From: Prochloron sp. SulCav_FS08_3_32_3330
GTDB taxonomy: Bacteria; Cyanobacteriota; Cyanobacteriia; Cyanobacteriales; DYNF01
DNA length: 61,742 nucleotides
NCBI GenBank assembly: GCA_020721205.1
Contig: DYNF01000012.1
Coordinates: 1 to 61,742, forward strand
Direction of reading: 5' to 3'
Translations under genes and position numbers: made by a program
Part shown: piece by piece, positions 19,384 to 44,024 of the stretch
Position numbering within the stretch: position 1 is the stretch's first letter
How the letters are laid out: the number at the start of each line of letters is the position of its first letter
The notes under the pieces: generated by a model
The model's database searches: none
The model's input: the letters and a program-made list of their open reading frames with translations, nothing else
What the model was told of the DNA's origin: nothing

Positions 19384-20400
19384 ATGTCTCAGTTTACCCC
19401 AAATATAAAAAAAGTTGAAACACAAGAAACAGCTATGCCTTCTCAAACCGGAAGCCTTAAAAAAACTCAAAATTTAATTAAAAAGAAGGAGTTTGCCCAA
19501 GCACTGACAGAAATAGAATTAGTGCTTCAACAAGAGCCAAATTCCGCAAAGGCACATATAATCGCTGGAAAATTAAAAGCTCGTCAAAAAAGACAAGATG
19601 AGGCTTTAGTTCACTTTCAGACAGCCCTCAGAATTGATCCCCAAACTATTCCCGCTTATCTCAGAACTGGTCGCATTTATTATGACAAAAAACAATATGA
19701 TTCTGCTATTAAAATTTTTGAAGCCGCAATTAAACAAGCTCCAAAACAGCCTTTGCCTTATGTAGGTCTAGCTCAAACTTATTTTCAACAAAAACAATAT
19801 ATACAAGCTGAACAAAACTTTATTAAAGCAATTAATCTCAATCCTCGCTTAACGGGTGCCAGAAGGGGACTTGCTTTAACCTATAAAGAGCAAAAGAGAT
19901 ATCCAGAAGCAATTAATTATTTTCAAAGTATTTTGAGAATTGAACCTGATAATGCGACTGCTTATCTTGGATTAGGGAGAATATATCTATTACAAGATAA
20001 TTTTGCTCTAGCAAAAGAGGCTTATCAAAAGGCTATTACCATTAAAGACAAAATTCCAGATTCTGCTTATATGGGACTTGCTGAAGCTTTGATTGCAGAA
20101 AACAATTTAACTAAAGCACAAGAAATTTTAACTTCAATTTCTAAAAGTTCCCAATTAGGATCAAGATTACAAAAACTTTGGGGTGATTTATATACACGCC
20201 AAGGTTTATACAAAGAAGCAACAGAGGCTTATCAAGCGGCTGTGTTACAAAGTTCTGATGAAAATACCGAATCTTCTGAATTAGAAGGGATTGATTTATT
20301 AAGAGAAATGGATGATTCTGAATGGGAAGAATTAGCTAAATCTTATCAAGTAACGGCTCAATCAAAGGTTAATCAAGTTCGTCAGCAATTGAATCGTTAA
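19384..20400 (+). CDS. Tetratricopeptide repeat protein
   Basis: 338 residues. After a short polar N-terminus (about 1-25) come about seven consecutive TPR units (about residues 30-285), such as AYLRTGRIYYDKKQYDSAIKIFEAAIKQAP and the following units with the usual A/G-Y-A pattern. The last 45 residues are acidic and helical (SELEGIDLLREMDDSEWEELAK). TPR arrays form protein-binding scaffolds. No signal peptide is present, so it is cytosolic. AGGAG lies 8-12 bases before the ATG. It heads the plus-strand half of the island, divergent from the giant synthase, so it may organise that enzyme or its partners, but this is inference. Confidence 0.85.
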   Translation: MSQFTPNIKKVETQETAMPSQTGSLKKTQNLIKKKEFAQALTEIELVLQQEPNSAKAHIIAGKLKARQKRQDEALVHFQTALRIDPQTIPAYLRTGRIYYDKKQYDSAIKIFEAAIKQAPKQPLPYVGLAQTYFQQKQYIQAEQNFIKAINLNPRLTGARRGLALTYKEQKRYPEAINYFQSILRIEPDNATAYLGLGRIYLLQDNFALAKEAYQKAITIKDKIPDSAYMGLAEALIAENNLTKAQEILTSISKSSQLGSRLQKLWGDLYTRQGLYKEATEAYQAAVLQSSDENTESSELEGIDLLREMDDSEWEELAKSYQVTAQSKVNQVRQQLNR

Positions 20401-21983: not shown

Positions 21984-22916
21984 ATGAAAAAAATTTTAAT
22001 TATTCTGTGTCCACCACGATCTTTTTCTTCCGTTGTATCTACAATGATTGGACAACATCCTCAAATGTATGGTTTTCCTGAACTTCATTTATTTTCGGCA
22101 CAGACAGTTAAGGAAATTATAGAAACTAAATCAAAAAAGGGTAAAATAGCTTCTCCCGGGTTATTGAGAACTTTAGCACAAGAACATGATGGAGTTCAAT
22201 CTACTGAGACTATTCTCAAAGCAATCAATTGGTTAATGGAAAGAAAAGATTGGTCTACTAAACAGTTATTTGATTATTTAATAGATTTAATTAATCCTAA
22301 AATTGGAGTAGAAAAAACTCCTAATACTGCAAAAAGAAAAAAATATTTAGAAAGGGCTTATAATGATTATCAAAATGCTTATTTTTTACATTTAACTCGT
22401 CATCCTGTTTCTACTCGTAAATCAATGACTGAATTTGTACTTAAACGTTCTGGTAAAAAGAAAAAGAAAAATTTATCTTCAATTCAAAAAGATAATAACA
22501 CTGATGGTTTTTTTCTTTGGTATAATATGCACCGAAATATTCTTAATTTTACAAACACATTACCTGTAGGACAAACCATGAGACTTAAAGGTGAAGATTT
22601 ACTGTCCTATCCTGATTTATATTTACCTCAAGTAGCACAGTGGTTAGGTTTAAGCACAGATTCAGAGGCGATCGAGGCGATGAAACATCCTGAAAATTCT
22701 CCCTATGCTTATGTGGGTCCTGTTCCTTGTCCGGGGGGAAATGATCCTAATTTTATGAACAATCCTACTTTAAGAACTGGAATTATTAAAGAACCTTCTC
22801 TTTCTAACTTTTTAAGTCAAGAAAAATGGGCAAATCCTCAATTAAATTATTTTTCTTCTTTAGATCAATTTCAAAATGATATTTTATCTTTAGCAAATTT
22901 ATTAGGATATAACTAA
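21984..22916 (+). CDS. PAPS-dependent sulfotransferase, tandem copy 1
   Basis: 310 residues. Transfers sulfate from PAPS to a hydroxyl, with acceptor unknown. The N-terminal strand and 5'-phosphosulfate loop read LIILCPPRSFSSVVSTMIG (about 4-22), with PRSFSS in place of the usual PRSGST. PELHLF follows at about 32-37, as in lipid and polyketide sulfotransferases. The 3'-phosphate motif LTRHPVSTRKS (about 137-147) supplies the Arg and Ser that bind PAPS. No signal peptide or membrane helix, so cytosolic. It is followed 18 bp later by a close paralogue, then by a propeller-like and a hydrolase gene, probably one transcript. There is no clear ribosome binding site, and the leader carries the end of a TnpB relic. 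Confidence 0.85.
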   Translation: MKKILIILCPPRSFSSVVSTMIGQHPQMYGFPELHLFSAQTVKEIIETKSKKGKIASPGLLRTLAQEHDGVQSTETILKAINWLMERKDWSTKQLFDYLIDLINPKIGVEKTPNTAKRKKYLERAYNDYQNAYFLHLTRHPVSTRKSMTEFVLKRSGKKKKKNLSSIQKDNNTDGFFLWYNMHRNILNFTNTLPVGQTMRLKGEDLLSYPDLYLPQVAQWLGLSTDSEAIEAMKHPENSPYAYVGPVPCPGGNDPNFMNNPTLRTGIIKEPSLSNFLSQEKWANPQLNYFSSLDQFQNDILSLANLLGYN

Positions 22917-22934: not shown

Positions 22935-23882
22935 ATGAAAGATCCTTTAATTATTTTATGTCCACCTCGTTCTTTTTCTTCTGTCATTTCAACTATGATT
23001 GGAGAACATCCTCAAATTTATGGTTTTCCTGAACTTCATCTATTTTCAGGTCAAACTGTTGAGGATATTATGATTAGAGAAGAAAAAGCAGGTAATTCTG
23101 GTCCCCCCGGACTAATTAGAACTTTAGCACAAGAACACGATGGTGTTCAAAATAGTAGAAGTATTATCAAAGCGATCGCTTGGTTTCGACAAAGAAAACA
23201 TTGGTCTACTAAAAAATTATTTGATTATTTATTAAACTTAGTAGATCCATTAATGGGTTTAGAAAAAAGTCCTGAAACTGGTGGCAAAAAGAAATATTTA
23301 GAGAGATCTTATCGTTGGTTTCCCAATGCTTATTATCTTCATTTAACTCGTCATCCGGTATCCACCCGCAAATCTCTGAAAGAGTTTTATGAATCAAAAA
23401 AAAGAAAAAAAACAAAAATAACCGCTAAATATGAAGTTGATGGTTTAATTATTTGGTATTTAATGCACTATAATATTGTGAATTTTACAAACACATTACC
23501 TGTAGGACAAACCATGAGATTGAAAGGCGAAGATTTACTTTCAAACCCTGATTTATATTTACCTCAAGTGGCACAGTGGTTAGGTTTAAGCACAGATTCA
23601 GAGGCGATCGAGGCGATGAAACATCCTGAACATTCTCCTTATGCTTATGTAGGTCCCGCTCCAGTAAGAGGTGGAAATGATCCTAAATTTATGCGGGATC
23701 CTAAATTACGTTTGGGAAAAGTCAAAGAACCTTCTTTAACTCAATTTTTTGCCCAAAATAAATGGCAATGGGCTTCTGATCTTTATCGTGATATTTTAGA
23801 AGAAGCTGGTCTTAATTTATTAACGGAAACAGAAATTTCTGTAGAAATTATGAGATTAGCTAATGTATTAGGATATGATTAA
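22935..23882 (+). CDS. PAPS-dependent sulfotransferase, tandem copy 2
   Basis: 315 residues, paralogous to the preceding gene along its whole length. The PAPS loop ILCPPRSFSSVISTMIG, PELHLF, the 3'-phosphate motif LTRHPVSTRKS and the C-terminal PYAYVGPAP segment are all conserved. About 170 bp near 23481-23655 are almost identical to 22544-22720 of copy 1, while the flanks have diverged, which points to gene conversion or recent duplication of that segment. The segment lies in the C-terminal half (FTNTLPVGQTMRLKGEDLL, GLSTDSEAIEAMKHPE). Acceptor unknown. The two enzymes may act on different hydroxyls of one product. Confidence 0.85.
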   Translation: MKDPLIILCPPRSFSSVISTMIGEHPQIYGFPELHLFSGQTVEDIMIREEKAGNSGPPGLIRTLAQEHDGVQNSRSIIKAIAWFRQRKHWSTKKLFDYLLNLVDPLMGLEKSPETGGKKKYLERSYRWFPNAYYLHLTRHPVSTRKSLKEFYESKKRKKTKITAKYEVDGLIIWYLMHYNIVNFTNTLPVGQTMRLKGEDLLSNPDLYLPQVAQWLGLSTDSEAIEAMKHPEHSPYAYVGPAPVRGGNDPKFMRDPKLRLGKVKEPSLTQFFAQNKWQWASDLYRDILEEAGLNLLTETEISVEIMRLANVLGYD

Positions 23883-23932: not shown

Positions 23933-25129
23933 ATGCTTGATTCTCTTTTTGATTTTCAACAGAATAGTTTTGAAAAAAACTATAAATTTGTAGTAGAAAA
24001 TATTGAAGATACATTATATTTAACTATTATTTATATTGATGAACAACTATTAGCTCTTGAGATTAAAGTTTTTATTTATGAGCCTCTTAATCAAAAATGG
24101 AAAACTTTATATCAACAAAATCTTAATCATAAAAATATTGATTTTTATAGCACAATTAAGGATCAATGTCAAATTAAAATTTTAAAAATAATTAATAAAA
24201 CTTTATTAATTATTTTTGAATATGCAGAACAATTTCTAATTTTAAGATTAAACAAGGACTATAATTTGATCGAGGAAATAGAATTAAATGATGACTTTGC
24301 TAAAAAACTTATCTCCTCTTGTTCCATCGGGGGTATTAATAATCTATTTTACTTAACAAATGTAGAGCAAACATTATTAGAAATAATTAAAATTAATGAG
24401 TTATTAGAAATTTCATCATTTGTAATTAATCTACCTCAGAATTTATTGAAAAATAACTTTAAAATTAGTCAAGTTTATTTGGCTAAAGATAATTTCTATT
24501 TAGGCATAGATCATGAACAAAAAGGATTTACCATTTCTAAAAAAGAGTATGAAGCTAATGAAAATAATGAGCAAAATTATTGGCATTCAATCATAGAAAA
24601 AGGAGCTTACCGTTACAGTCTTAATCAAAAAATTTCTTTTATAACTTTTTTTCAAGATTGTATCTATGTTGCTAGTGGATTAAATTTAGATGAACAAAAC
24701 TTAGAAAAAAATAAATATTATCCTAGTGGATTTGAAATAATTAGGATTTATAATGATGATGATTGGGATATTATTACAGGGAATCCTCAATTTACACCTC
24801 AAGGTTTAAAAGTACCTCTTTCTGGTTATGGTAGTGGATTTGATCATTGTTATAATTGTCTAGTAGAAAGTTTAATCGTTCATCAAGATCAATTGTGCCT
24901 TTTAACAAAAAATATAGATAATTTACAACTTTGGCAATCTTCTAATGGAGAAGATTGGCAGTTACAAACTATCGAATATAACCTAGAAAATTATACTCAA
25001 TTTAAAGTTATTAAAACTTTATCCTGTAGTTGGGGCTTAATTTATGTTGTAAATTTAAGGCAGTTAAATTTACAACAAAATTATCAAATTTTAGTTATTA
25101 TAGAAAATAAAAAGTTATCAAAAATATGA
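23933..25129 (+). CDS. Propeller-like protein of unknown function (paralogue of the protein at 32276)
   Basis: 398 residues. No signal peptide and no catalytic motif. The protein is beta-rich with spaced Trp/Tyr-containing segments. Its C-terminal half aligns by eye with the 495-residue protein at 32276-33763: SLNQKISFITFFQDCIYVASG, then FEIIRI, DIITGNPQ, PLSGYGSGFDHCYN and LQLWQSS correspond to LNQGIVSMKAFKGALYVGTG, EIIRI, DIIVGNTR, PLSGLTAGFHNYF and a later W-containing block. The stop codon overlaps the next gene's start by ATGA, so the two are translationally coupled. It might bind a glycan or act as a scaffold, but no function is known to me. Confidence 0.7.
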   Translation: MLDSLFDFQQNSFEKNYKFVVENIEDTLYLTIIYIDEQLLALEIKVFIYEPLNQKWKTLYQQNLNHKNIDFYSTIKDQCQIKILKIINKTLLIIFEYAEQFLILRLNKDYNLIEEIELNDDFAKKLISSCSIGGINNLFYLTNVEQTLLEIIKINELLEISSFVINLPQNLLKNNFKISQVYLAKDNFYLGIDHEQKGFTISKKEYEANENNEQNYWHSIIEKGAYRYSLNQKISFITFFQDCIYVASGLNLDEQNLEKNKYYPSGFEIIRIYNDDDWDIITGNPQFTPQGLKVPLSGYGSGFDHCYNCLVESLIVHQDQLCLLTKNIDNLQLWQSSNGEDWQLQTIEYNLENYTQFKVIKTLSCSWGLIYVVNLRQLNLQQNYQILVIIENKKLSKI

Positions 25130-26052
25130 ATAATCAAGTAGAAATAAGTTATCTTAATAATAAAAACGTCATTGTCTATAAAATTCCTCCTAAGCTAACA
25201 GATGTTAATATTGATAATTGGTTAGAACCTCATTATGTTGCTTTTAATTTGTCCTTAAAAATTCGTCCTGAATTATTTTTATTTTTAGGAGGTTCTTTTG
25301 GTAAACCCGGACAACAAAAACTATTTTTACAAGAAATTATTAATTTAGGTTATATTGTGATTCATCTTAATTATCCTAATGATTGGACAATTGCGAATCT
25401 TTGCCAAAATAGTAACCAATTTAATTGTCATGAAAAAAAAAGAAAAGCAATTATTTATGGACAAACAAATGCCAGAAATAATATTATCATTACTCCAGCA
25501 AACTCGATTGAAAATCGTTTAGCTAAATTATTACTTTTTCTCACAAATTATTTACCCGAATTATCTTGGTCAAATTATCTCAAACATAATCAGATAAAAT
25601 GGGAATCAATTATTATTGCAGGGCATTCTCAAGGGGGTGGTCATGCCGCTATCATTGCTCAAGATTACCTTGTCTCTAGGGTCATTATGTTAAGTTCCCC
25701 TGCTGATTATAACCAACATTATAACCAAATGGCATCATGGTTATCTACTCCCACAGTAACACCTAGCGAAAGATTTTATGGTTTTGTTCATCTTCAAGAT
25801 CCAGCTTATCCAAGAATTATTAAAGCATGGAATTTATTAGGTTTATCTAATCATGGTGATTTAATTAATATTGATCACATCCCCATATCTGAAGTTAATT
25901 CTCATCAATTAGTCACATCTAAATTAACTGCTACTCCTCATAAATTTCATGGGAGTATTTTTAATGATCGCCATACCCCTAAATTCAGTGATGGGAGACC
26001 TTTATATAAAGAAGTTTGGCAATATTTATGTCTTCATCCTAATCTAAATTAA
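25126..26052 (+). CDS. Alpha/beta hydrolase
   Basis: 308 residues. The nucleophile elbow AGHSQGGGHAA has Ser168. The preceding strand and the LFLFLGGSFGKPG oxyanion-type loop (about 51-63) fit the alpha/beta hydrolase fold. Likely acid and His are in the C-terminal half (for example HKFHGSIFNDRHTP, about 271-284). The GHSQGGGHAA form and the C-terminal layout resemble a family of bacterial hydrolases without known substrate. It is not closely similar to the thioesterase-like hydrolase at 33795. It begins inside the stop codon of the preceding gene (ATGA overlap) and ends 9 bp from the convergent export-adaptor gene. Confidence 0.8.
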   Translation: MNNQVEISYLNNKNVIVYKIPPKLTDVNIDNWLEPHYVAFNLSLKIRPELFLFLGGSFGKPGQQKLFLQEIINLGYIVIHLNYPNDWTIANLCQNSNQFNCHEKKRKAIIYGQTNARNNIIITPANSIENRLAKLLLFLTNYLPELSWSNYLKHNQIKWESIIIAGHSQGGGHAAIIAQDYLVSRVIMLSSPADYNQHYNQMASWLSTPTVTPSERFYGFVHLQDPAYPRIIKAWNLLGLSNHGDLINIDHIPISEVNSHQLVTSKLTATPHKFHGSIFNDRHTPKFSDGRPLYKEVWQYLCLHPNLN

Positions 26053-26061
26053 CTTAAAAAA

Positions 26062-28755
26062 TTAAGGAAGCCAAGACCAAAATTCTATTTGTAAAAATCG
26101 AATTAAAGGGCGAGTCAAAATAACAATAGTTGGTTTTTTTTCTTGTTTAATTTTTCCATAACCAGACATCCCCGGTTTTAAAATAAAATCTGTATTTTCT
26201 AATTTAATTTGTACAGTAAAAACCCTAACCAATAATTGATTATCTTCTTCTTGAGTAGCAGGTTCAATCGCAATAACTTTACCCGAAATAGGTTGATTAG
26301 GATAAGCTAAAAGTTTAACCTGTGCCGAGACATTTAGACTAAATTCCCCCACATCATATTCAGGAATTTTAAGTTCAGCTACTAAATTTGTTGCATCTTG
26401 TGCGGTAGCAAAAGTTTCTCCTTGGTTGAGATAACTACCAATATTTTTATCTAAATATGATTCAACTAAATAACCATCAAAAGGCATTAATAAATCACTA
26501 CTAAAATTTTTTTCTTGGGTATATTTTAACTCTTGTTGTAAACGATTTAATTCAGCAGTTGTTCGTTTCACTTCTTGCTGTGCTACTTCAATATCAGCCG
26601 GAATTGTACCAATTAAAACTAAGTTTAGTTTAGCTTGGGCTTCCTGTAAACTTTTTCTTTTAGTTAAAACATCTTGTTTTACTTGTTCTAAATGTTGACG
26701 TTGACTAGCTAATTTGGCTTCAATTTGTTGAATAATTCTTTGTTGAGTGTTTAAATTTTGTCTTTTTTCTACCACATTAATTTTATCAGTATCTGCTTTT
26801 TCTTGACTATTTTCTAATCTTTGTAAAGGGAATGCTCCTTCCTCATACAAAGATTCAAGTCTAGTAACTTCTTGCTCACTATATTTAGCTGTTATAATCG
26901 CACTTTCTAGTTGTTGTTCTAAACTTTTTAATTCTTCTTTTTTTACGCTTAATTCTGCTCTAACTTCTTCTACTTCTTGTCTAACTACTTCCACTGCCGA
27001 TAAAGCAACATTAACTTCTTGTCGAACTACTTCCACTTGTTTAGTTGAAATTTCAATTTCTTCTTTTCTAGCCCCTTCTTCTAATTTTTTTAAGGTAACT
27101 AGAGATTGTTTTTTTTGTGCTTCTTTTTCTTTCAGTTGTTCTTTTAATGTTAATATTTGATTTTCTAAATCGCTGGAAATTATATCAGCAATCATTGTTC
27201 CTTTTTTTATTAAAACGCCATCCCCACCTTGATAAAAAACCTGATCTATTTTTCCAGAAATGGGTGTTTGTATTTCTTGTTGTTTTGGGGGCAATATTTG
27301 ACAATCTCCACCAATCGAATAAGGCATGGGAATCATCAAGAGGCTAAATATTAGCAATAGGAAAAATATCAGTCTAACTCTTTTTGTTTTCACCGAAAAA
27401 TTATTAATATTTTTCTCATTATTAAAGTCTTTTATTTCTAAACTTTCTTCATTTAAAATTGGATTATTTTCTTTTTTCTTATTATTGTTTAATTTTGAGC
27501 GAGAAATATTAAAAAATACTTTTCTGATATAATTAAATCCTAATAATAGCAAAACAACTAAAATAATATAAAAAGTTCCTCGTCCAAAAATATCAGGAAA
27601 AGAACGACTTAATCCCGAAGCAAAGCGTAAGCTAATTTTAACCACAATAAAACAAAGTATTATAGTTATTATTAAACCAAATATAACAATTAACCATTCT
27701 TTTTTTGATAAAGACTTTTTTGATTGTTTACTAAATAAAGTGCCAAGACTTCTTCTCATTAATTGACGAGGATAATTAGCAGATTTATTCATTAATAATG
27801 ATAAAATTCTTGCCCCCGGAGAAGCAGGTCTTAAGGGTAAACTTCCTTGAATTAAACTAGCTAATCCAATAATAGCAAATAAAATACCACAAGAGGATAA
27901 AATATTCCCTTTTCCTAAGTTAAAATACCAAGTAAATGTACCAATAATAAATAACAGACTTCTAAAACATAAAGGAGAACCATAGATAAATAATTGTTGT
28001 TTTTTACTTAATTTATTAATATCTAGGAGTTTTGCATAAAATCTTGGCACAAATCCCCATCTAATTAACATTCCAAAATCACTAACTTTTCCGCCATAAT
28101 AAGTAGCAATTAAGCCTCTGCCAAATTTTGTGACAAAATTAATTAATAGTAAAGATAATAGGAAAAAAGTTAAAAAAGAGCCAAGTTGTTTTCCTATTTG
28201 TAATGATTCTTCAACTAATTGTTGTTCATTTAACCATAATTTAAAACAAATCGCACAAAGAGGAATTAAAGACCATAATAATAGTTTATATAAAATTAAT
28301 AAAGGTTTTAAAAATGAAACAATTTTCGTAAAAAGTGGGTCAGGATTTTTTAAAATTGACCAACGAGGAACATCATCTTTTTTTGAACCACCTACAAAAT
28401 CATCTTCATCATCATCACCTTCGTCCTCTTGTGGTAATTCTTGAGCATTAACTTGAATTTCTGTTGATATTTGAGGCGTTTCTAATAACCCATATTCGGT
28501 GATTTGTTGTAAAAAAAGATTAAAATTATCTTCACTAATTGCTACCCCAAAATTAAGCTCAAAATTTGCTATAATATTCTCTACCGTTGATTCCCCATCA
28601 AGAGACTGACATAAAAAAAACTCCTCCTCTCCAAATTCAAAAGTTTCCTTAGAATTAGGTTCTTGAAGATAGTAAATTTTTTTTAAATTATCTTGATTTT
28701 GTTCAACTTTAATTAATAAATCTTTTCTTAAGCAAGAACGGAATTTTTTTGACAT
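26062..28755 (-). CDS. PqqD/M50-like/HlyD fusion: membrane export adaptor
   Basis: 897 residues. Domains: an N-terminal PqqD-like helical domain (about 1-95) of the kind that binds leader peptides; an acidic linker (about 110-135, DEGDDDEDDF); a membrane region with about six helices that aligns by eye with M50/site-2-protease-like adaptors (YYGGKVSDFGMLIRWGFVPRFYA, about 219-241); then a HlyD-type periplasmic part (lipoyl-like half near 485-520, coiled coil about 525-740, second half near 765-890, ending EFWSWLP). At the usual HExxH position the sequence is KFGRGL, so the M50 part looks catalytically dead. It would span the inner membrane and reach toward the outer membrane. No ABC ATPase or TolC gene is nearby. 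It lies just downstream of the RTX gene, so it may export that protein. Confidence 0.8.
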   Translation of the reverse strand: MSKKFRSCLRKDLLIKVEQNQDNLKKIYYLQEPNSKETFEFGEEEFFLCQSLDGESTVENIIANFELNFGVAISEDNFNLFLQQITEYGLLETPQISTEIQVNAQELPQEDEGDDDEDDFVGGSKKDDVPRWSILKNPDPLFTKIVSFLKPLLILYKLLLWSLIPLCAICFKLWLNEQQLVEESLQIGKQLGSFLTFFLLSLLLINFVTKFGRGLIATYYGGKVSDFGMLIRWGFVPRFYAKLLDINKLSKKQQLFIYGSPLCFRSLLFIIGTFTWYFNLGKGNILSSCGILFAIIGLASLIQGSLPLRPASPGARILSLLMNKSANYPRQLMRRSLGTLFSKQSKKSLSKKEWLIVIFGLIITIILCFIVVKISLRFASGLSRSFPDIFGRGTFYIILVVLLLLGFNYIRKVFFNISRSKLNNNKKKENNPILNEESLEIKDFNNEKNINNFSVKTKRVRLIFFLLLIFSLLMIPMPYSIGGDCQILPPKQQEIQTPISGKIDQVFYQGGDGVLIKKGTMIADIISSDLENQILTLKEQLKEKEAQKKQSLVTLKKLEEGARKEEIEISTKQVEVVRQEVNVALSAVEVVRQEVEEVRAELSVKKEELKSLEQQLESAIITAKYSEQEVTRLESLYEEGAFPLQRLENSQEKADTDKINVVEKRQNLNTQQRIIQQIEAKLASQRQHLEQVKQDVLTKRKSLQEAQAKLNLVLIGTIPADIEVAQQEVKRTTAELNRLQQELKYTQEKNFSSDLLMPFDGYLVESYLDKNIGSYLNQGETFATAQDATNLVAELKIPEYDVGEFSLNVSAQVKLLAYPNQPISGKVIAIEPATQEEDNQLLVRVFTVQIKLENTDFILKPGMSGYGKIKQEKKPTIVILTRPLIRFLQIEFWSWLP

Positions 28756-32275: not shown

Positions 32276-33763
32276 TTATTCGACTGGTTTTTTCTCCCGC
32301 CAAATTTCCAAACCCCCATCAGGGTTATCTTGATATTCCCATTCCCATAATTTACTTTTTCTAACTGCAACTTTCGGTCCAAAAGGATTAGCAGTTCCCA
32401 CAAATAAACCATGAGGGGTAGATAGAATAGTCCGAAAACCATAATTATAGGGGTTGCCAAAACCTCTTTTGGTTACAGCTACCCAATTTTCTCCGTCATA
32501 AGTACGCCATAGTTCACAACCTCCATATAACTCTAAAAAATCATCAATATTAGCACCCGCTAATATTTGAGAAATTCTTTTTGGTTTTTCCATGAGGTTT
32601 GTAAAACGCAGGATAATACTCCAGTCCATTGTACCTACATAGAGCCAATTATTATGAATTTCCATACGCCAAATATAACCGGAAAAATAGTTATGAAAAC
32701 CTGCGGTTAATCCACTTAAAGGTTGTTTTCCATTCCTAGTATTTCCTACAATAATATCATAACTCAGATCTGGATTAATTCTAATAATTTCTGCCGCCGC
32801 CGGACCCACATTAAAGCGTTGATCATAACCACCATTTTGAATACCCGTTCCTACATATAATGCTCCTTTAAATGCTTTCATACTGACAATACCTTGGTTT
32901 AACGCACCTCTACCTGCTCCTTTATCAATAATTTTTTCCCAATGATAAGGTTTTTTCCCTTCTCCTAAAGTTCGCCAAATTTGAAAACCATTGATTCCGG
33001 CTGTACCGACATAAAGATAATCTCCCCAAACTTCCATATCATAAATAACAGCTACTTCTTCAATCGTTTCAAAACCGGGTTCATTCACACATTCCCATTC
33101 TCCACTACTAGGGTCTTTCGTTTCATAAATTAAAGAACTCCATGCAATATTCACATTACCTTTGGCGGATCCTGTGGGAGCGGTATATAATTTATTTTTA
33201 AAAGGTACTAAAACTCGAATAGCATTAAAGGGTAAATTTTCAGAATTAGTTTTAAATGTTAAAGGGGGTGTGAGGGTAAAATTAAGACCATCTTCAGAGC
33301 GTAAAATTTCCGTTCCACTACTTTTTGATCTTGTCCATGTGGCTACATATAAAGCAGGTTCAAGGTCAGATGTTCCTTGAAAAACCACCATAGAACGAAA
33401 TCCTAAATAACGACTATATTCGATTCCTTCATTATTAGTAATTAAAGGGGCTTGATAAACTCTTTGCCAAATTTTAGTGATGGGATTATAACGCCAAATT
33501 TCACCTTTAGCGGCATGATGTTCAAATTCAGGGGTATAATTTTGATGAGGACAATCAACGGGCCAAACGTCAATTTTAACAAAAGGCATGGCAAATTTTA
33601 AGAGACATAAATTAGCTCTACCTGTACCAATATAAAGATGATTTTTAAACCAAGCATAGGAATAAGGATAGGCATTATAACCATCGCCAAAGCCATTTTG
33701 AGATATTTTTTGAAAGTCTGATTCTTTTAACCCCGGATTAGGATGAGGATTATATATTTTCAT
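32276..33763 (-). CDS. Propeller-like protein of unknown function (paralogue of the protein at 23933)
   Basis: 495 residues. Several copies of an LYVGT-type strand motif (HLYIGTG, ALYVATWT, YLYVGTAG, ALYVGTG, WLYVGTM, LFVGTANPFGP) at intervals of 40-80 residues, with W.R or EIWR segments between, indicating a beta-propeller fold. No signal peptide, lipobox or catalytic motif. It is homologous by eye to the C-terminal half of the protein at 23933-25129. The gene lies 31 bp downstream of the thioesterase-like hydrolase on the same strand, so they are probably co-transcribed. The two paralogues in two half-clusters suggest a role specific to this pathway. Function unknown. Confidence 0.75.
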   Translation of the reverse strand: MKIYNPHPNPGLKESDFQKISQNGFGDGYNAYPYSYAWFKNHLYIGTGRANLCLLKFAMPFVKIDVWPVDCPHQNYTPEFEHHAAKGEIWRYNPITKIWQRVYQAPLITNNEGIEYSRYLGFRSMVVFQGTSDLEPALYVATWTRSKSSGTEILRSEDGLNFTLTPPLTFKTNSENLPFNAIRVLVPFKNKLYTAPTGSAKGNVNIAWSSLIYETKDPSSGEWECVNEPGFETIEEVAVIYDMEVWGDYLYVGTAGINGFQIWRTLGEGKKPYHWEKIIDKGAGRGALNQGIVSMKAFKGALYVGTGIQNGGYDQRFNVGPAAAEIIRINPDLSYDIIVGNTRNGKQPLSGLTAGFHNYFSGYIWRMEIHNNWLYVGTMDWSIILRFTNLMEKPKRISQILAGANIDDFLELYGGCELWRTYDGENWVAVTKRGFGNPYNYGFRTILSTPHGLFVGTANPFGPKVAVRKSKLWEWEYQDNPDGGLEIWREKKPVE

Positions 33764-33794
33764 TTTAAAACTAATTTTTTATTTACAATCAAGT

Positions 33795-34721
33795 TTAATC
33801 AGGAATGTTTGATTCAATCTTTATAATTTTTTCTAAAAATTGACTGGTTTGATTCAGAAAAATATGGGGTTTTGATAAAGGAAAAAAATGTCCAGCTTTT
33901 TCTACAATATAACTATTGGTAATATTCCCTAATTGTTCAAGTTTTATTTTAGTAATTAAGTTAGGTGAATTAGCCCCATAAATTAAAAAAGTAGGTAGTT
34001 TAAGGTGTTGTAATTCTGATTCTGTAATAGGTTCAGGTTGTTTAAATTCTATCATAGCGGGAGTAGTTTCAATTAAGTTTAACCATTTTTTTGCTGTGTG
34101 AATATTTTGTTGAAAAGGAAGTAAATCAAGATTATTTTTGAGTTCAACACTAGAATTATTTTGTTGATTAACTTGTGATTTAGCAATTTCTGTTAAAAGT
34201 TGAAATCCTGCTTCAGATTCATCAGGCGATATATTAATATTAATCTGGCGTAATTGTTGATCTAAAATTTCCCAATTATGCCAATTAGATAAAAGTTGTT
34301 GAGGCTGAAGAATTTTTAATCTTACATCTGCTAACACTAAACTTTTAATTTTTTCAGGATATTTATGAGCAAAAGTTAAGCCGATACTACCGCCAAAACT
34401 ATGGGTAATTAAATGAATTTTTTTTAGGTTTAAATATTCTATTAATTCAGATAAAATTGATGACATATTATCACAGTTATAACCTGATTGTAGCATTGAA
34501 CTTCTACCGTGTCCGGGTAAATCAAAGAGAGTAATTCTGGTATTAATTTGTTTTCCTTGAGTATCTTTTAAATTTAATTGATTAGCAATATTATACCAGA
34601 AGGCTAAGTTTGTGGCTAAACCATGAATCATCACAATATCTTCAGGTTGTTGATCTTTGATATTATTATGATTAATTTGTATATAATTAATTTTACAATT
34701 TTCTAAAGTTGCGATCGGCAT
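33795..34721 (-). CDS. Alpha/beta hydrolase, thioesterase-like
   Basis: 308 residues. VMIHGLATNLAFWYNIA (about 28-44, HG oxyanion region), LFDLPGHGRSS, and the nucleophile elbow LITHSFGGSIGLTFAHKYPEKIKSLVLAD with Ser108 are seen. A C-terminal GHFFPLSKPHIFLNQ supplies the probable catalytic His. The fold and its position directly after an ACP-sulfotransferase match the thioesterase that follows the sulfotransferase domain in olefin synthases and CurM, where it hydrolyses the beta-sulfated acyl-ACP and triggers decarboxylation and sulfate loss. That role here is inferred from order and motif. A more ordinary hydrolase function is possible. Confidence 0.75.
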   Translation of the reverse strand: MPIATLENCKINYIQINHNNIKDQQPEDIVMIHGLATNLAFWYNIANQLNLKDTQGKQINTRITLFDLPGHGRSSMLQSGYNCDNMSSILSELIEYLNLKKIHLITHSFGGSIGLTFAHKYPEKIKSLVLADVRLKILQPQQLLSNWHNWEILDQQLRQININISPDESEAGFQLLTEIAKSQVNQQNNSSVELKNNLDLLPFQQNIHTAKKWLNLIETTPAMIEFKQPEPITESELQHLKLPTFLIYGANSPNLITKIKLEQLGNITNSYIVEKAGHFFPLSKPHIFLNQTSQFLEKIIKIESNIPD

Positions 34722-34788
34722 TGTTAATTCAGTAAATAAATAATAAACAGTCCAAAAACTTTTGTTAAGGATAGATTATAATTATTTT

Positions 34789-34807
34789 AACAAGCAAGAT
34801 GCTTGTT
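34789..34807. terminator. Short hairpin between the ACP-sulfotransferase and hydrolase genes
   Basis: The arms AACAAGCA and TGCTTGTT enclose 3 bases, in the 104-bp gap between the two genes. It could attenuate read-through from the ACP-sulfotransferase gene to the hydrolase gene. No T-run is seen on the minus strand. Confidence 0.4.
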
Positions 34808-34825
34808 TTACACAAGTAAAAATTC

Positions 34826-36121
34826 TTAATTTAATCTTTCTGGATCATAACCGAAAGACTGAGCGATTTCCCAAGTAAAATCACTTAAAAAATCAATTTG
34901 ATGATATTTGCGCCAACGATAGGCAATACTAGGTTCAATTTGACGATGTAAATGAAATTTTAAATCCCCACTCATGCGAGAATAATTTTTAAGTCCATCT
35001 GTCATTTTTTCTTGTTTATATTGATAAGGATTTAACATTTCTGCTGAGAAATCTACTTTTAAAAAAGCACATATTTTTTTGATAATTATTTCTGGCATAG
35101 TGACTAGATCTTCAAATTGAATTTTAATTTGTCTATGGGAGGGAATATTTTGAAGAAATGTCATAATATTTTGATGACAGACTAACCATGCCAACTCACC
35201 ATATTGTCGGCGGGAAAATTCTTGAGAATCCATAAAAGGCAATAATTTATCCATTTTAGCATCTTCAAAGGAGCGAATCATACCATAGGGATGTCGAGTT
35301 AAATGAATATAAAAAGCATTTTCAAATTGCATTTCTGCTCTTTTTAAGAAGTTAAGATGATAGGAATAAGAAGGAGTTTTATCTACTAATATTTTATCCT
35401 TAAGCCATACTTGTAATAAGGAATAAAAATCTTGAGTTGATAAGTTTTTTTCAAGCAAATCATTCATGATTTTTTCTGCTTCTTCAATAGGACATTTTTT
35501 AGCTGTTATAATTGATTTAATTGTACCATCTAAAAGATGTCTATTTTCCTGATTATTTAAGGCTTTATCTCTATTTTTAAGTGTATCAAAGGAAAGTAAA
35601 TGTAATTCAGGAGGAGCAAAAATTTGGGGATTTCCTGCTAAAATTACCCGGAACAAAGTTGAACCGGAACGAGATGGAGATAAAATAAATACCGCCGGAG
35701 GATTTTTGGTTTGATTTATCTGATTAACGAAAATAGGTTCTGGTATTTTTTTTCTAAATTCTTCTAGGTTTTCTAAAGTTAGTTTCTGACAACTATCTAC
35801 ATTATTACTAATAGATTTTTGCGTATTTTCCGGATTAAGCTCAATTGAAATATGCTCATTTTTTTCAATAAAAGAAATAAGTTGTTTTAAACTCAAATCG
35901 TCAATATATTTATCACCAATCATAATTAATTGATGGAAACCGAATTTCTGTTGAAATTGATTTTCTATTCTGACAAATAATTCCACAAAATCAATAGAAC
36001 TAAATCCTAAATCTTTAATTAATTGAGTGTGAGGTGTAATTTCATTTTCTATTTCTAATTCCCATTCGTCAATTAATAATTTAATTAGAGAAATTATCTC
36101 TTGTTTGATCTGATCATTCAT
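34826..36121 (-). CDS. ACP-sulfotransferase fusion, olefin-synthase/CurM-like
   Basis: 431 residues. An N-terminal acyl carrier protein (about 1-85) has DLGFSSIDFVEL, with Ser42 the probable phosphopantetheine site. After a linker comes a PAPS sulfotransferase domain (about 143-425): FILSPSRSGSTLFRVILAG (5'-phosphosulfate loop), PPELHLLSFDTL, FYIHLTRHPYGMIRSFEDA (3'-phosphate motif), and a C-terminal RMSGDLKFHLH..I and RWRKYH. These blocks match the sulfotransferase of cyanobacterial olefin synthases and CurM, which sulfates a beta-hydroxyacyl-ACP before decarboxylative alkene formation. In those enzymes ACP-ST-TE is one chain. Here the TE-like hydrolase is the next gene, after 104 bp. The same 118-bp block found upstream of the beta-helix gene lies 47 bp upstream of this start. 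Confidence 0.85.
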   Translation of the reverse strand: MNDQIKQEIISLIKLLIDEWELEIENEITPHTQLIKDLGFSSIDFVELFVRIENQFQQKFGFHQLIMIGDKYIDDLSLKQLISFIEKNEHISIELNPENTQKSISNNVDSCQKLTLENLEEFRKKIPEPIFVNQINQTKNPPAVFILSPSRSGSTLFRVILAGNPQIFAPPELHLLSFDTLKNRDKALNNQENRHLLDGTIKSIITAKKCPIEEAEKIMNDLLEKNLSTQDFYSLLQVWLKDKILVDKTPSYSYHLNFLKRAEMQFENAFYIHLTRHPYGMIRSFEDAKMDKLLPFMDSQEFSRRQYGELAWLVCHQNIMTFLQNIPSHRQIKIQFEDLVTMPEIIIKKICAFLKVDFSAEMLNPYQYKQEKMTDGLKNYSRMSGDLKFHLHRQIEPSIAYRWRKYHQIDFLSDFTWEIAQSFGYDPERLN

Positions 36122-36167
36122 AAGGATAATTAATACTTAAAAAGTAAATAAAGAATCAAAATATAGT

Positions 36168-36285
36168 ACAGAACGAGTTGATTTCCACAATTTTTAAAAG
36201 TCGGGGATTTTACTAAAACCTTATATTTAAGGATTAACTAGAATAAAATCCCCGACTTTTTTGTCCCTTCTTCCTCGTTTTATGC
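36168..36285. repeat. 118-bp block, copy upstream of the ACP-sulfotransferase
   Basis: Almost identical, in the same orientation, to 39614-39732. It contains a long hairpin, AAAAGTCGGGGATTTT paired with AAAATCCCCGACTTTT, around a 45-base AT-rich loop, plus TTGTCCCTTCTTCCTCGTTTTATGC. On the minus strand it lies 47 bp before the ACP-sulfotransferase start, so it may be a shared leader, attenuator or terminator. Confidence 0.8.
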
Positions 36286-36322
36286 GATAGAATCTATATA
36301 AAACTGTTAAAAACCCTTCTCA

Positions 36323-39559: not shown

Positions 39560-39613
39560 GATCTTTTTTTTAATAAGAATAAGTTTTAATATGGATTTTA
39601 AGAAAATTGTACA

Positions 39614-39732
39614 ACAGAAGGAGTTGATCTCCACAATTTTTAAAAGTCGGGGATTTTGCTAAAACCTTAGTATTTAAGGATTAACTAGAATAAAATCCCC
39701 GACTTTTTTGTCCCTTCTTCCTCGTTTTATGC
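39614..39732. repeat. 118-bp block, copy upstream of the beta-helix gene
   Basis: Direct repeat of 36168-36285. The two copies lie about 50 bp upstream of the starts of the ACP-sulfotransferase and beta-helix genes respectively. The right edge meets the inverted end of the MITE-like element at 39733. Confidence 0.8.
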
Positions 39733-39867: not shown

Positions 39868-42800
39868 CTATTCATCTTTAAAGACCATGGAACTAATTTT
39901 AGATTGATTGTCAAGAAATTCTTGCATTAATTTAAAATGATTTTGGACAATTAAAGATTTTATTTCATCATCTATATCTAATAGTTCTTGGTTATTAGAG
40001 TTATTAGTAAGATTAGGGAGGTTCAAGTTTGGTTTAGAAGTATTATTAAATTCATTCGCAATATTCCTTTGATTATCCGAATTATTATTGCTTACTTTAC
40101 TATTAACTTTTTTTTGTTCAATTTGTTTTCTGAAATCTTCCACAAATTCCGGTTTTAATGTCATTTTCGGCAATAACATATTTAAAATTGGAGTTTTTTG
40201 AGGATTATGATCTATTTTTAGAACCAGATCTAAATTAAGTTTTTTGACTTGACGATGTTGATATAAACTATTAACTTTTAAAGGATAATTATTAATAAAT
40301 AATTGAGCTAATAATATTAAAAATTGTTTTAAATCTGAACTTTGTTTTTTATTAGTAGGATAAGCTTGATAATTTTTACCCTGTAAAATACTATGAATAA
40401 ATGTAGTTAAATTATGATTTGCTCCTACTTCAATAAAAGTTCTAACTCCCTGTTGGTAAAGTGTGTTAATTGTTTCTTGAAATTTGACAGGCATTGACCA
40501 TTGTTCTAAAGCTAATTTTCTGATTTCTTCCCTATCTTTAGGATAAGGTAGAGTGGTAGCACAACTATATAATTGTTGAGTATTATTTTCTAACTTTAAA
40601 TCTTGATAATGATTTTTTAAAGCCGTTGCACTATCATTAAATAAAGGAGTATGATAAGCTCTATTGAAAGGTTGAATTATATAAATCCCGCCTAATTCTT
40701 GAATTTTGTTTAAAATTTCTTTACTCTCTAAATTAGTAGCAAAAAGAATAGTTTGATTAGGACAATTATTAGCAACTAGAAATAAAGAATTAGCGTAATT
40801 TTCTAATAAATCATTAATAATTTCTGCACTTAAATTACCAACAGAAAAAACTACTCCAGTTATGATTTGATCATTGTGATTTAATTCTTGATAAATTTGA
40901 TTAACTCGTCGTAGATGGGAAATTAATTCTGTTTTAGATGTTACTTTCGATAAATAAGAAGCAGTAGCGGCAGTATGTTCTCCGGCACTATGTCCTAAAA
41001 TAACATCATATTTAATGTCAAAATCCCATAATAATTCATAAATACCCATACTAGCGGCAAATAAAGATTCTGTAGCTAGATCTCCAGCATAAAGTTGATT
41101 TTCTTGCCATTGTTTTTGTTGTGAAGTTAAAGCCGTAGGAGGGGGAAAAATCAAATGACTAGGTGGATTTTGCCGGGGAAAAGCTTGATCTAATAAATCA
41201 AACCATTGTCTTACTTGAGGAAAATAAAGACATAACTCTTTTAACATATTTACATATTGAGAACCTTCACTGGAAAAAACAAAGGCAATTTTGCCTAAAT
41301 CTTGAGCTTGATCACTGTAAAAAATTCCATTTCTTTCAGAAGATTGAAGTAAATTATGTTCAGTTAAAGATTGCAGACAAAGATTAATTTTACTAAGTAA
41401 ATCATCAATATTAGTAGCTAAAATTGCTAATTTATAATTGTTTTGACTAGAGATTTTATCAATCAAAGTATAGGCTAAATCTGCTAAATTTGTTTCGGGA
41501 AAATCCGTTAAAAATTGAGTTATTTGTTGCAGTAAATTTATTAATGCTTGTTCGGTTTTTCCTGAAAATAAGAGTAATTCCCATGTCCATTGATTTGGGA
41601 CCACAGAAGAATTAAAATTCAGAGGTAAGGGGGTACGAGAGGGAATTTGTGTGGCTGGGATATATTCCTCTAAAATGACGTGAGTATTAATGCCACCAAA
41701 ACCAAAAGCATTGACTCCAGCACGACGGGGATAATCTTCCGATTTAATCCAAGGACGAGTTTCTGTATTAACATAAAAAGGAGAAGTTTCTAAGTTTAAA
41801 TCGGGATTAATTTCCTCACAAATACTAGGGGGTAAAGTTTTATAATATAGAGCTAAGGTCATTTTGATTAAACTTGCCATACCTGAGGCGGGAATACAAT
41901 GTCCAATCATGGATTTAACTGAACCGATCGCAATGTTGGGTAAATTTCCTTCTCTTTGACCAAATACCCTAGTTAAAGCCTGAATTTCGGTGATATCTCC
42001 TAAAGGAATACCTGTACCATGAGCTTCAATTAAATCAATACTATGACAATCAATACCTGTTTCTTCATAAGCTCTTTGGATCGCTAAAATTTCTCCTTCT
42101 AATCTTGGGGCAAGTAAGCCTAAAGCCTTACCATCACTAGCCATTCCCACACCTTTAATTAAAGCATAAATGCGATCGCCATCTTTAATCGCATCCTCAA
42201 GACGTTTTAAAACTAAAAATCCTGATCCTTCACTCAATAAAGTCCCATTAGCCCCTGTCGCAAAAGGTTGAATCTCCGTACGAGATAAAGCATTTAATTG
42301 ACAAAAAAGTTGATAAATAACCGGAGGCATTGAAGCTTGTATTCCTCCGGCTAACATCATATCACAACGATGATTTAATAATTCTTCCATTGCCAATTTG
42401 ACGGCAATTAATGAAGAAGCACAAGCCGCATCAATAAGATAATTTGGTCCCATTAAATCTAAACGATTAGCAATTCTACCGCAAGTAACATTTGAGACTA
42501 AAGTAGGCGCTCTTTCAATGGGTGCGGGGGGTAAACTGCTTTTTAGTTGTTCTCGTAAAGTGGTCAATTCTTCTGATGTTAATTCAGGAATTAATTGTGT
42601 GATTAAATCAATCGTTTGATCTAAAACGAAACCATATTGAAGTCCAGTTACATCCCCACGATTGGGATTTGAACCTTTTCCCAAAATAATACCAGTTCTT
42701 TCCCGATTAAAGTTTCTCTCTAAATAATTAGCATCTGTGAGGGCTTCTTTCGCTGTTTTAAGAGCTAAAAAGTGACTGGGATCTCCTCCCACTGAGGTGG

Positions 42801-43050
42801 GAGGTATCCCAAATTCAAGAGGATTAAACTCAGCATTTTTACCTAATAGACCCACTTTGCGAGTGTAAATTCTCGCTAAATCTTCCATTGGCTTAGTCTG
42901 AGGATCAAAATAAGGTTTTGCCCATTGATCAGGGGCATCTTGAAGGCAATATTTTTGATTAAGAATATTTTGCCAATAGTGATTAATGTTTTTTGCTCCC
43001 GGGAAAATACCCGACATTCCGATAATAGCAATTTCTCTTTGTTGTGTCAT
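39868..43050 (-). CDS. Ketosynthase-acyltransferase protein (PfaB/HglC-type)
   Basis: 1060 residues. Ketosynthase about 4-455: AIIGMSGIFPGA, IDAACASS with Cys210, EAHGTGIPLGD and MIGHC..ASG carry the Cys-His-His triad, and GFGGINTHVILEE closes it. Acyltransferase about 585-885: GHSAGEHTAA with Ser688; the usual GQGSQ is replaced by SSEGSQ. Residues about 925-1060 form an Asn-rich linker and a helical tail recalling the linker before the ACPs of the giant synthase. There is no ACP, KR or DH, so it must work on carrier domains of another protein, either the tandem ACPs of the giant synthase or the ACP-sulfotransferase. The KS-AT layout recalls PfaB/PfaC and HglC partners. It follows a sulfotransferase gene by 65 bp on the same strand. 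Confidence 0.85.
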   Translation of the reverse strand: MTQQREIAIIGMSGIFPGAKNINHYWQNILNQKYCLQDAPDQWAKPYFDPQTKPMEDLARIYTRKVGLLGKNAEFNPLEFGIPPTSVGGDPSHFLALKTAKEALTDANYLERNFNRERTGIILGKGSNPNRGDVTGLQYGFVLDQTIDLITQLIPELTSEELTTLREQLKSSLPPAPIERAPTLVSNVTCGRIANRLDLMGPNYLIDAACASSLIAVKLAMEELLNHRCDMMLAGGIQASMPPVIYQLFCQLNALSRTEIQPFATGANGTLLSEGSGFLVLKRLEDAIKDGDRIYALIKGVGMASDGKALGLLAPRLEGEILAIQRAYEETGIDCHSIDLIEAHGTGIPLGDITEIQALTRVFGQREGNLPNIAIGSVKSMIGHCIPASGMASLIKMTLALYYKTLPPSICEEINPDLNLETSPFYVNTETRPWIKSEDYPRRAGVNAFGFGGINTHVILEEYIPATQIPSRTPLPLNFNSSVVPNQWTWELLLFSGKTEQALINLLQQITQFLTDFPETNLADLAYTLIDKISSQNNYKLAILATNIDDLLSKINLCLQSLTEHNLLQSSERNGIFYSDQAQDLGKIAFVFSSEGSQYVNMLKELCLYFPQVRQWFDLLDQAFPRQNPPSHLIFPPPTALTSQQKQWQENQLYAGDLATESLFAASMGIYELLWDFDIKYDVILGHSAGEHTAATASYLSKVTSKTELISHLRRVNQIYQELNHNDQIITGVVFSVGNLSAEIINDLLENYANSLFLVANNCPNQTILFATNLESKEILNKIQELGGIYIIQPFNRAYHTPLFNDSATALKNHYQDLKLENNTQQLYSCATTLPYPKDREEIRKLALEQWSMPVKFQETINTLYQQGVRTFIEVGANHNLTTFIHSILQGKNYQAYPTNKKQSSDLKQFLILLAQLFINNYPLKVNSLYQHRQVKKLNLDLVLKIDHNPQKTPILNMLLPKMTLKPEFVEDFRKQIEQKKVNSKVSNNNSDNQRNIANEFNNTSKPNLNLPNLTNNSNNQELLDIDDEIKSLIVQNHFKLMQEFLDNQSKISSMVFKDE

Positions 43051-43115: not shown

Positions 43116-44024
43116 TTATCCATAGCCTAACTCAAGACATAATTTAATTACTTCAGGAATAAAACCTTTCTCATCATTACGCCAAGGAAGTTTCCCCTCT
43201 AAGGAACTAGGTTTAATTTTTTTATAACGAAAAGCAGGAGATTGCTGAAAACCCGGATTATTACCCCATTGTGCGCCCCAAGGTCCCATACAAGAATAAG
43301 GAGAATCTTCTGTTTTTAACATGGTTTGATAAATATTTTCATTCCAATCAAAATTTAACCAACGGCAAATTTTTTCTAAATAAAACGCTGGATCATTACA
43401 AAGGTCTTCACCTCTTAAAAACATCTGTTGAGAAGGGGGAATAGTTTGCAAAAAATTTAAGATTTTCTCTTGTCTACGATACCAAGCATATTGAGGATCA
43501 ATCGTTGGTGGAATAGTATCATAATCAACAGAATCTGCCGCAATCAAAGTGCCGATCGCTTGAGGGGCTTTCATCACAGATTTACCTTGTTCTCTAGGAT
43601 GACGGGTCAAATAAAGATAATGAGCATGGGGAAAAGTAGTTTTAATGGATTCTAAAACTCTTTGATTTTTAGAATAAGCTGGACTTTTATCAACTATTCT
43701 TAAAGGACTGACATAATGACATAATTCTTGATAAACATCAGCCGTTGTTGAGTGTAGACGGCGATTAATCCAGCGATGTGCCATTTCTACAGTTTGTCGA
43801 GTTTGTTCACCGCCATATAATTGTGCTACAGTGCGCAATAAACCATGAATCATAAAACTTCTTTGTTTTTTAGAGTAATTAACTAATTGTTCTAAAGATG
43901 TAGTGACAAAAAGATTAATTTCGGGAACACCATAGGCTTGAGGATGTTGACCTAACATCGCACAAACTAAAGAAGTAAATGAGCGTGGGGAAGCAAGAAT
44001 AATAATAGGTTCTAATACTAACAT
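43116..44024 (-). CDS. PAPS-dependent sulfotransferase
   Basis: 302 residues. The PAPS loop ILASPRSFTSLVCAMLG (about 8-24), PEINLF, the 3'-phosphate motif YLTRHPREQGKSVM (about 136-149), the LRGEDLCNDPAFYLEKICRWL block and the SPYSCMGPWGAQWGNNPGF segment make it a more distant member of the same family as the tandem pair at 21984-23882. It lacks an ACP domain and a signal peptide. It is the first gene of the long minus-strand run and lies 65 bp upstream of the KS-AT gene. The acceptor is unknown, perhaps a hydroxyl of the lipid made by the island. Confidence 0.85.
   Translation of the reverse strand: MLVLEPIIILASPRSFTSLVCAMLGQHPQAYGVPEINLFVTTSLEQLVNYSKKQRSFMIHGLLRTVAQLYGGEQTRQTVEMAHRWINRRLHSTTADVYQELCHYVSPLRIVDKSPAYSKNQRVLESIKTTFPHAHYLYLTRHPREQGKSVMKAPQAIGTLIAADSVDYDTIPPTIDPQYAWYRRQEKILNFLQTIPPSQQMFLRGEDLCNDPAFYLEKICRWLNFDWNENIYQTMLKTEDSPYSCMGPWGAQWGNNPGFQQSPAFRYKKIKPSSLEGKLPWRNDEKGFIPEVIKLCLELGYG

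Follow-up and report, generated by a model that had tools for sequence, protein, structure and literature searches.

A carrier protein-sulfotransferase fusion within a conserved, apparently undescribed and probable secondary-lipid gene cluster of cyanobacteria and proteobacteria

The window analysed here is a stretch of 61,742 nucleotides from Prochloron sp. SulCav_FS08_3_32_3330 (contig DYNF01000012.1); the genes of interest are collected in Table 1. Two neighbouring genes, encoding a carrier protein (ACP) fused to a sulfotransferase (ACP-ST) and an alpha/beta hydrolase, had been picked out in a preliminary description made from the sequence alone. Both open reading frames proved to be real and to lie on the minus strand as described, with the domains and motifs named there, including SRSGSTLFRVILAG, LTRHPYGMIRSFED and GDLKFH in ACP-ST and Ser108 in the hydrolase. 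The ACP-ST protein matched the Pfam families PP-binding (1.2e-5, residues 23-65) and Sulfotransfer_3 (4.4e-30, residues 142-359), the latter placing its sulfotransferase in PF13469. Ser42 lies within DLGFSS(42)IDF and was invariant across five aligned ACP-ST homologues, while Ser108, Asp132 and His278 of the hydrolase were invariant in 14 homologues. Promoter and terminator scans of positions 33600-36600 gave sites no more numerous than in shuffled sequences.

Table 1. Genes of the pair and of the surrounding cluster, in window coordinates
Feature	Position	Strand	Size, properties and basis
ACP-sulfotransferase fusion (ACP-ST)	34826..36121	-	431 aa; ACP at residues ~1-90 with Ser42, sulfotransferase at ~139-426
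Alpha/beta hydrolase, putative chain-releasing thioesterase	33795..34721	-	308 aa; Abhydrolase_1 1.3e-25; triad Ser108-Asp132-His278
Iterative secondary-lipid synthase ER(NMO)-KS-AT-ACP-ACP-KR-DH, PfaD-PfaA-like fusion	10438..18975	-	Pfam; two GIDSIK ACP motifs
KS-AT protein; may feed the terminal ACP	39868..43050	-	KS Cys and AT Ser intact; Pfam, sequence motifs
Conserved beta-propeller protein, cluster marker	32276..33763	-	495 aa; no Pfam or NCBIfam family; model pLDDT 89.3, propeller matches
Paralogue of the propeller protein	23933..25129	+	35% over 111 residues
Free sulfotransferase, kept in both cluster versions	43116..44024	-	Pfam, synteny
First of two tandem free sulfotransferases (second family)	21984..22916	+	
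Second of the two tandem free sulfotransferases (second family)	22935..23882	+	
BPSS1187-family protein, co-conserved with the cluster	25126..26052	+	NF047580 1.6e-75
HlyD-type membrane-fusion protein, conserved in the cluster; putative export	26062..28755	-	
TPR protein, near the cluster in several genomes	19384..20400	+	

The large synthase has the Pfa-type layout, KS-AT-ACPn-KR-DH plus ER, with two ACPs. In the two synthase proteins of the window neither a FabA-like dehydratase/isomerase nor a KS-chain-length factor (PfaC) was found, and both KS domains look catalytic, so that the possibly polyunsaturated chain suggested earlier is not supported. The KS-AT protein was considered as a chain-length factor and rejected, because its KS Cys is kept. 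The three free sulfotransferases of the window are additional to the genes of the preliminary description. A fold search with the propeller protein pointed to no function; the two propeller proteins, both outside any Pfam or NCBIfam family, are co-conserved with the cluster and may be enzymes. Two more genes in the minus-strand row (36323-39634 and 28891-32061) encode a beta-helix protein whose barrel is of the inverse-autotransporter type and an RTX/PPC protein; a beta-helix relative lies near the cluster in genome G389 too. An Eco57I-type restriction-modification methylase with DUF7149/DUF7814 (5296-8850) lies near the synthase gene.

In a search against all PDB chains, the sulfotransferase domain of ACP-ST best matched those of CurM (4gbm, 2.5e-56) and of olefin synthase (OLS; 4gox, 4.6e-56), to both of which it aligned over its full length; these matches rule out chance open reading frames. 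None of the other PDB sulfotransferases scored better than 3e-3. A sulfotransferase tree was built from 68 sequences, comprising the OLS, CurM, NRPS-embedded and ACP-ST domains together with the free sulfotransferases of the same clusters. All carrier-linked enzymes (OLS, CurM, NRPS and ACP-ST) fell into one superclade (support 98/96), with the free cluster sulfotransferases outside it, and the PAPS-binding motifs RSG(S/T)T and RHP were invariant in the carrier-linked PF13469 enzymes, ACP-ST included. By these motifs, its fusion to an ACP and its place in the superclade, ACP-ST belongs to the carrier-linked PF13469 sulfotransferases. The OLS and CurM domains formed a clade of their own (97/96) that excluded ACP-ST, which grouped with the NRPS-embedded enzymes, at 100/100 in the tree without long-branch rows. 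Grouping of ACP-ST with OLS was rejected when the long-branch rows were left out (p-AU 0.025) and was not rejected with the full data set (p-AU 0.197). The kinship with OLS and CurM proposed at the outset therefore holds for the superclade and stops short of the OLS+CurM clade, since ACP-ST falls with the NRPS enzymes; a position away from OLS and CurM, which had been named as counter-evidence, was obtained in part. The PELHLL segment of ACP-ST matches OLS and CurM, whereas NRPS sulfotransferases have PELELL, PELYLL or PELQLL there.

Many of the NRPS-embedded relatives sit in large NRPS starter proteins, many of them of the glycerate-starter (cyanopeptolin) type. Cyanopeptolin-type peptides keep the sulfate on glycerate. 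The oci cyanopeptolin cluster has a glycerate-loading domain and a sulfotransferase domain (PMC2533009), and the near relative that we examined in detail was a starter protein of the order FkbM-FkbH-ACP-ST-C-A-T (FkbH, E 6e-93). Related sulfotransferases also occurred in the contexts FAAL-ACP-ST-C and C-A-T-ST-TE; given these three contexts, carrier-linked sulfotransferases are often not followed by an OLS-type thioesterase. Members of the same superclade were also found embedded in NRPS-like modules of Acidobacteria, Planctomycetes, Chloroflexi and Proteobacteria (L149-L212, for example L153, L161, L167, L171 and L200), and some of these proteins hold two sulfotransferase domains. Since the nearest sulfotransferases lie in starter modules with FkbH, and a free-standing carrier can serve either end of a chain, ACP-ST might act as a loading carrier that holds a small hydroxyacid during its sulfation and before its extension, placing the sulfate at the omega end. 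We regard this as unlikely: no FkbH glycerate-loading domain or ligase is fused to ACP-ST, which consists only of the ACP and the sulfotransferase, and its slot lies between the KS-AT protein and the hydrolase.

Where a cluster has no ACP-ST, the corresponding position is occupied by a free ACP of 93-107 aa. With an HMM built from the free ACPs, the carrier domains of ACP-ST proteins reached 45-110 bits (median 88), compared with at most 4 bits for OLS ACPs and at most 8 bits for NRPS ACPs. On these scores the ACP of ACP-ST is an orthologue of the free ACP that other genomes carry in this cluster, and an origin from a split OLS ending was not borne out.

The hydrolase likewise gave a picture at odds with the OLS-type thioesterase that it had been taken for. 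Its best PDB matches were MhpC-type hydrolases (2e-12), and the CurM thioesterase 3qit scored far lower (1.2e-5), as one among many similar alpha/beta hydrolases; the thioesterase of a real OLS, by contrast, matched 3qit at 4.8e-90. The predicted structure (pLDDT 88.8) gave fold matches to generic esterases and C-C hydrolases, and 3qit was not among the 50 matches listed, an absence that does not rule out a resemblance. Equivalents of Arg205, Asn211 and Asn267 of the CurM thioesterase, which we take to be the sulfate-binding residues of the decarboxylating enzyme, were not found in the aligned cluster hydrolases, which have Thr or Pro, and the invariant Phe279, instead. Where OLS thioesterases and 3qit keep RTR...N and GHN, the cluster hydrolases have an LLETT(T)A segment without Arg, and an invariant Phe279 after the catalytic His (HF versus GHN). 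The acid Asp132 follows strand beta-6, in the same place as the Glu of the CurM thioesterase. Hydrolase genes occur in both versions of the cluster, including clusters without any carrier-linked sulfotransferase. Identification as an OLS thioesterase was rejected on these two grounds, the lack of the Arg/Asn residues and the occurrence without a carrier-linked sulfotransferase. With the ACP matching the free ACP of the cluster, and the hydrolase present in both versions and devoid of the CurM Arg and Asn residues, the sulfotransferase is the only part of the pair with OLS-like kinship.

A FAAL loading gene had been reported missing, which is true of the window: the architecture FAAL-ACP-KS-AT-KR-ACP-ST-TE, in one or two open reading frames, is absent from it. 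The same genome nevertheless carries, on contig C34 (L007:6165-14669), a complete OLS of 2834 aa with exactly this architecture, FAAL included, in which the Arg, Asn and His-Asn residues of the CurM thioesterase are kept. The organism thus has no need of the window cluster as its olefin synthase. The 11 other ACP-ST genomes searched showed no full-length OLS match; the PKS or FAAL homology seen there was partial. As of 2014, all 17 known OLS pathways shared one architecture, and the only described split separates FAAL (PMC3903477). Taken with the ACP, the hydrolase and the place of the sulfotransferase, the separate intact OLS leads us to set aside the split olefin-synthase ending of the preliminary description. 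What stands of its proposal is a carrier-linked, OLS/CurM-like sulfotransferase fused to an ACP and encoded in line with a hydrolase and an iterative Pfa/Hgl-like synthase.

The cluster could still have recruited a carrier-linked sulfotransferase and, together with its own hydrolase, make a terminal alkene, the chain being sulfated at the beta position, hydrolysed and then decarboxylated with loss of the sulfate. The superclade shared with OLS and CurM, the gene order KS-AT, ACP-ST, hydrolase in L138, which mirrors the OLS C-terminus, the hydrolase acid after beta-6 and the capacity of a beta-sulfated acid to decarboxylate are all compatible with this. The hydrolase, however, lacks the Arg205/Asn211/Asn267 equivalents and is conserved where no carrier-linked sulfotransferase is present, the sulfotransferase is closer to NRPS enzymes, an exporter and free sulfotransferases would be superfluous for an alkene, and the genome already holds an OLS. 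Terminal alkene formation is thus possible yet disfavoured, with little beyond the sulfotransferase itself pointing to it, and we give it a low probability.

Homologues of ACP-ST were found by an alignment-based scan of contigs, a single-protein scan having given none. The recurring gene set comprises the ER-KS-AT-ACP2-KR-DH synthase, the KS-AT protein, an ACP, the hydrolase, two beta-propellers, free sulfotransferases, HlyD and sometimes an APS kinase. Much of it recurs in Sphaerospermopsis, Leptolyngbyaceae, Cyanobium, Phormidesmis, Neptuniibacter, Chromatiaceae, Rhabdochromatium, Abyssibacter and Lysobacter; in Ideonella, ACP-ST and a free sulfotransferase were present within the stretch examined. 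Of 386 cyanobacterial genomes, eight carried the propeller gene at 32276-33763, among them all five with ACP-ST. An APS kinase, consistent with PAPS supply, adjoins four clusters; HlyD is present in nearly all, and a TolC-like outer-membrane efflux protein adjoins those of Neptuniibacter and Ideonella. The cluster is conserved and common to cyanobacteria and proteobacteria, and it is apparently undescribed.

The carrier slot exists in two versions. In place of the order seen in L138, genomes G389, G427, G464 and G312 have KS-AT, free ACP, a PF01663 enzyme and the hydrolase. Whole-genome searches recovered the PF01663 enzyme, at 43-100% identity to the query, from nine of nine genomes with a free ACP and from none of five with ACP-ST; a further 14 ACP-ST genomes gave one distant match only (29% identity, in a Leptolyngbyaceae MAG). 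The KS-AT tree requires at least three switches of slot version. All three independent pairs were opposite as expected (n=3, p 0.25), so that the mutual exclusion is striking, without amounting to statistical proof at three pairs. In Abyssibacter a free ACP adjoins KS-AT and the hydrolase, and a separate ACP-ST is present as well (L148:4419-5780, 8418-8735), while no PF01663 match was found; the two may serve one shared pathway.

The PF01663 enzyme, of the alkaline-phosphatase (AP) superfamily and 530 aa long, was seen at L055:6972-8570(+) and in G389, G427, G464, G632, G382, G312, G481 and G578, often directly beside the free ACP in clusters without ACP-ST. It gave no PDB match at 1e-4. Several free-ACP clusters also carry sulfatase-like (PF00884) and TauD-type dioxygenase genes (L123:9555-10397, L127:5420-6322), which suggests hydroxylation and the handling of sulfate esters. 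The alternation of ACP-ST with PF01663, with its three or more switches, would fit a cryptic sulfation in which the sulfate serves as leaving group, either in a displacement or in an elimination that does not decarboxylate the chain and gives an enoyl product, the PF01663 enzyme doing the step in another way. The synthase already has a DH, however, and we know of no AP-superfamily enzyme that makes such a leaving group; this is the least probable of the alternatives considered.

We favour, with a probability of about 0.5, the reading that in a conserved secondary-lipid pathway the pair carries the chain, tailors it and releases it, and that the product keeps its sulfate and is exported. It builds on the domains, motifs, gene order, ACP orthology, sulfotransferase placement, conservation and slot versions reported above. 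The iterative ER-KS-AT-ACP2-KR-DH synthase and its KS-AT partner would build a long chain, which, bearing a hydroxyl at a position that we infer, would pass to the ACP of ACP-ST as the presumed recipient. The fused sulfotransferase would transfer sulfate from PAPS to this hydroxyl while the chain is still on the phosphopantetheine arm, and the adjoining hydrolase would release the chain. The sulfate would stay on, the free sulfotransferases would add more, and the HlyD-type exporter would move the anionic lipid out.

The grouping of the sulfotransferase with NRPS enzymes, the ACP orthology, the synteny of the slot and the hydrolase in both versions speak in favour of this exported sulfated lipid. 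So do the free sulfotransferase at 43116-44024 in both versions, the APS kinase, HlyD and the outer-membrane efflux protein, the intact OLS elsewhere in the genome, the lack of a full-length OLS match in the other ACP-ST genomes searched and the NRPS contexts in which no OLS-type thioesterase follows the sulfotransferase. Against it stand Asp132 at the place of the CurM Glu, PELHLL, the p-AU of the full data set and the PF01663 alternation, for which it has no explanation. The beta-sulfated acids of OLS and CurM, moreover, lose their sulfate together with CO2. On balance there is an even chance that the cluster stands for a lipid family not yet described, namely exported, sulfated secondary lipids of cyanobacteria and proteobacteria that are the products of a PfaD-PfaA-type synthase, with a carrier slot repeatedly swapped between ACP-ST and free ACP plus PF01663.

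An OLS-like sulfotransferase beside a hydrolase is no evidence of alkene production, because sulfotransferases of this type are also found in NRPS modules with a glycerate starter and in the lipid cluster described here. The cluster points to a conserved, apparently uncharacterised lipid pathway in named bacteria (Neptuniibacter, Sphaerospermopsis, Cyanobium and Rhabdochromatium), one in which a carrier-bound sulfotransferase alternates with an AP-superfamily enzyme. The earlier statement that no described pathway has this combination has stood: none was found in the open literature searched, nor any description of sulfotransferases with hgl/PUFA-type clusters, and the joining of a secondary-lipid synthase with a carrier-linked sulfotransferase is apparently undescribed there. 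The texts of the secondary-lipid survey of Shulse and Allen 2011 (PMC3098273) and of PMC13291983 make no mention of sulfotransferases.

Compared with known systems, the pair resembles the C-terminus of OLS and CurM in having an ACP, then a PF13469 sulfotransferase of the same superclade, then a hydrolase. It differs in that its sulfotransferase lies outside the OLS+CurM clade, its ACP is not recognised as an OLS ACP2 by HMM, FAAL-KS-AT-KR is not in the same chain and its hydrolase lacks the residues presumed to bind sulfate. Cyanopeptolin (oci-type) glycerate starters and other sulfotransferase-bearing NRPS modules have the closest sulfotransferases, also next to a carrier protein, but these are NRPS-embedded with unrelated ACPs, whereas ACP-ST is free and accompanied by an iterative lipid synthase. 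With the secondary-lipid synthases, PUFA (Pfa) and heterocyst-glycolipid (Hgl) (PMC3098273), the window shares ER, KS-AT-ACPn-KR-DH and a second KS-AT protein. It is set apart from Pfa and Hgl by the fusion of ER to the PfaA-like protein, by two synthase proteins in which no FabA-like DH/I or CLF was found, and by the association of its cluster with sulfotransferases.
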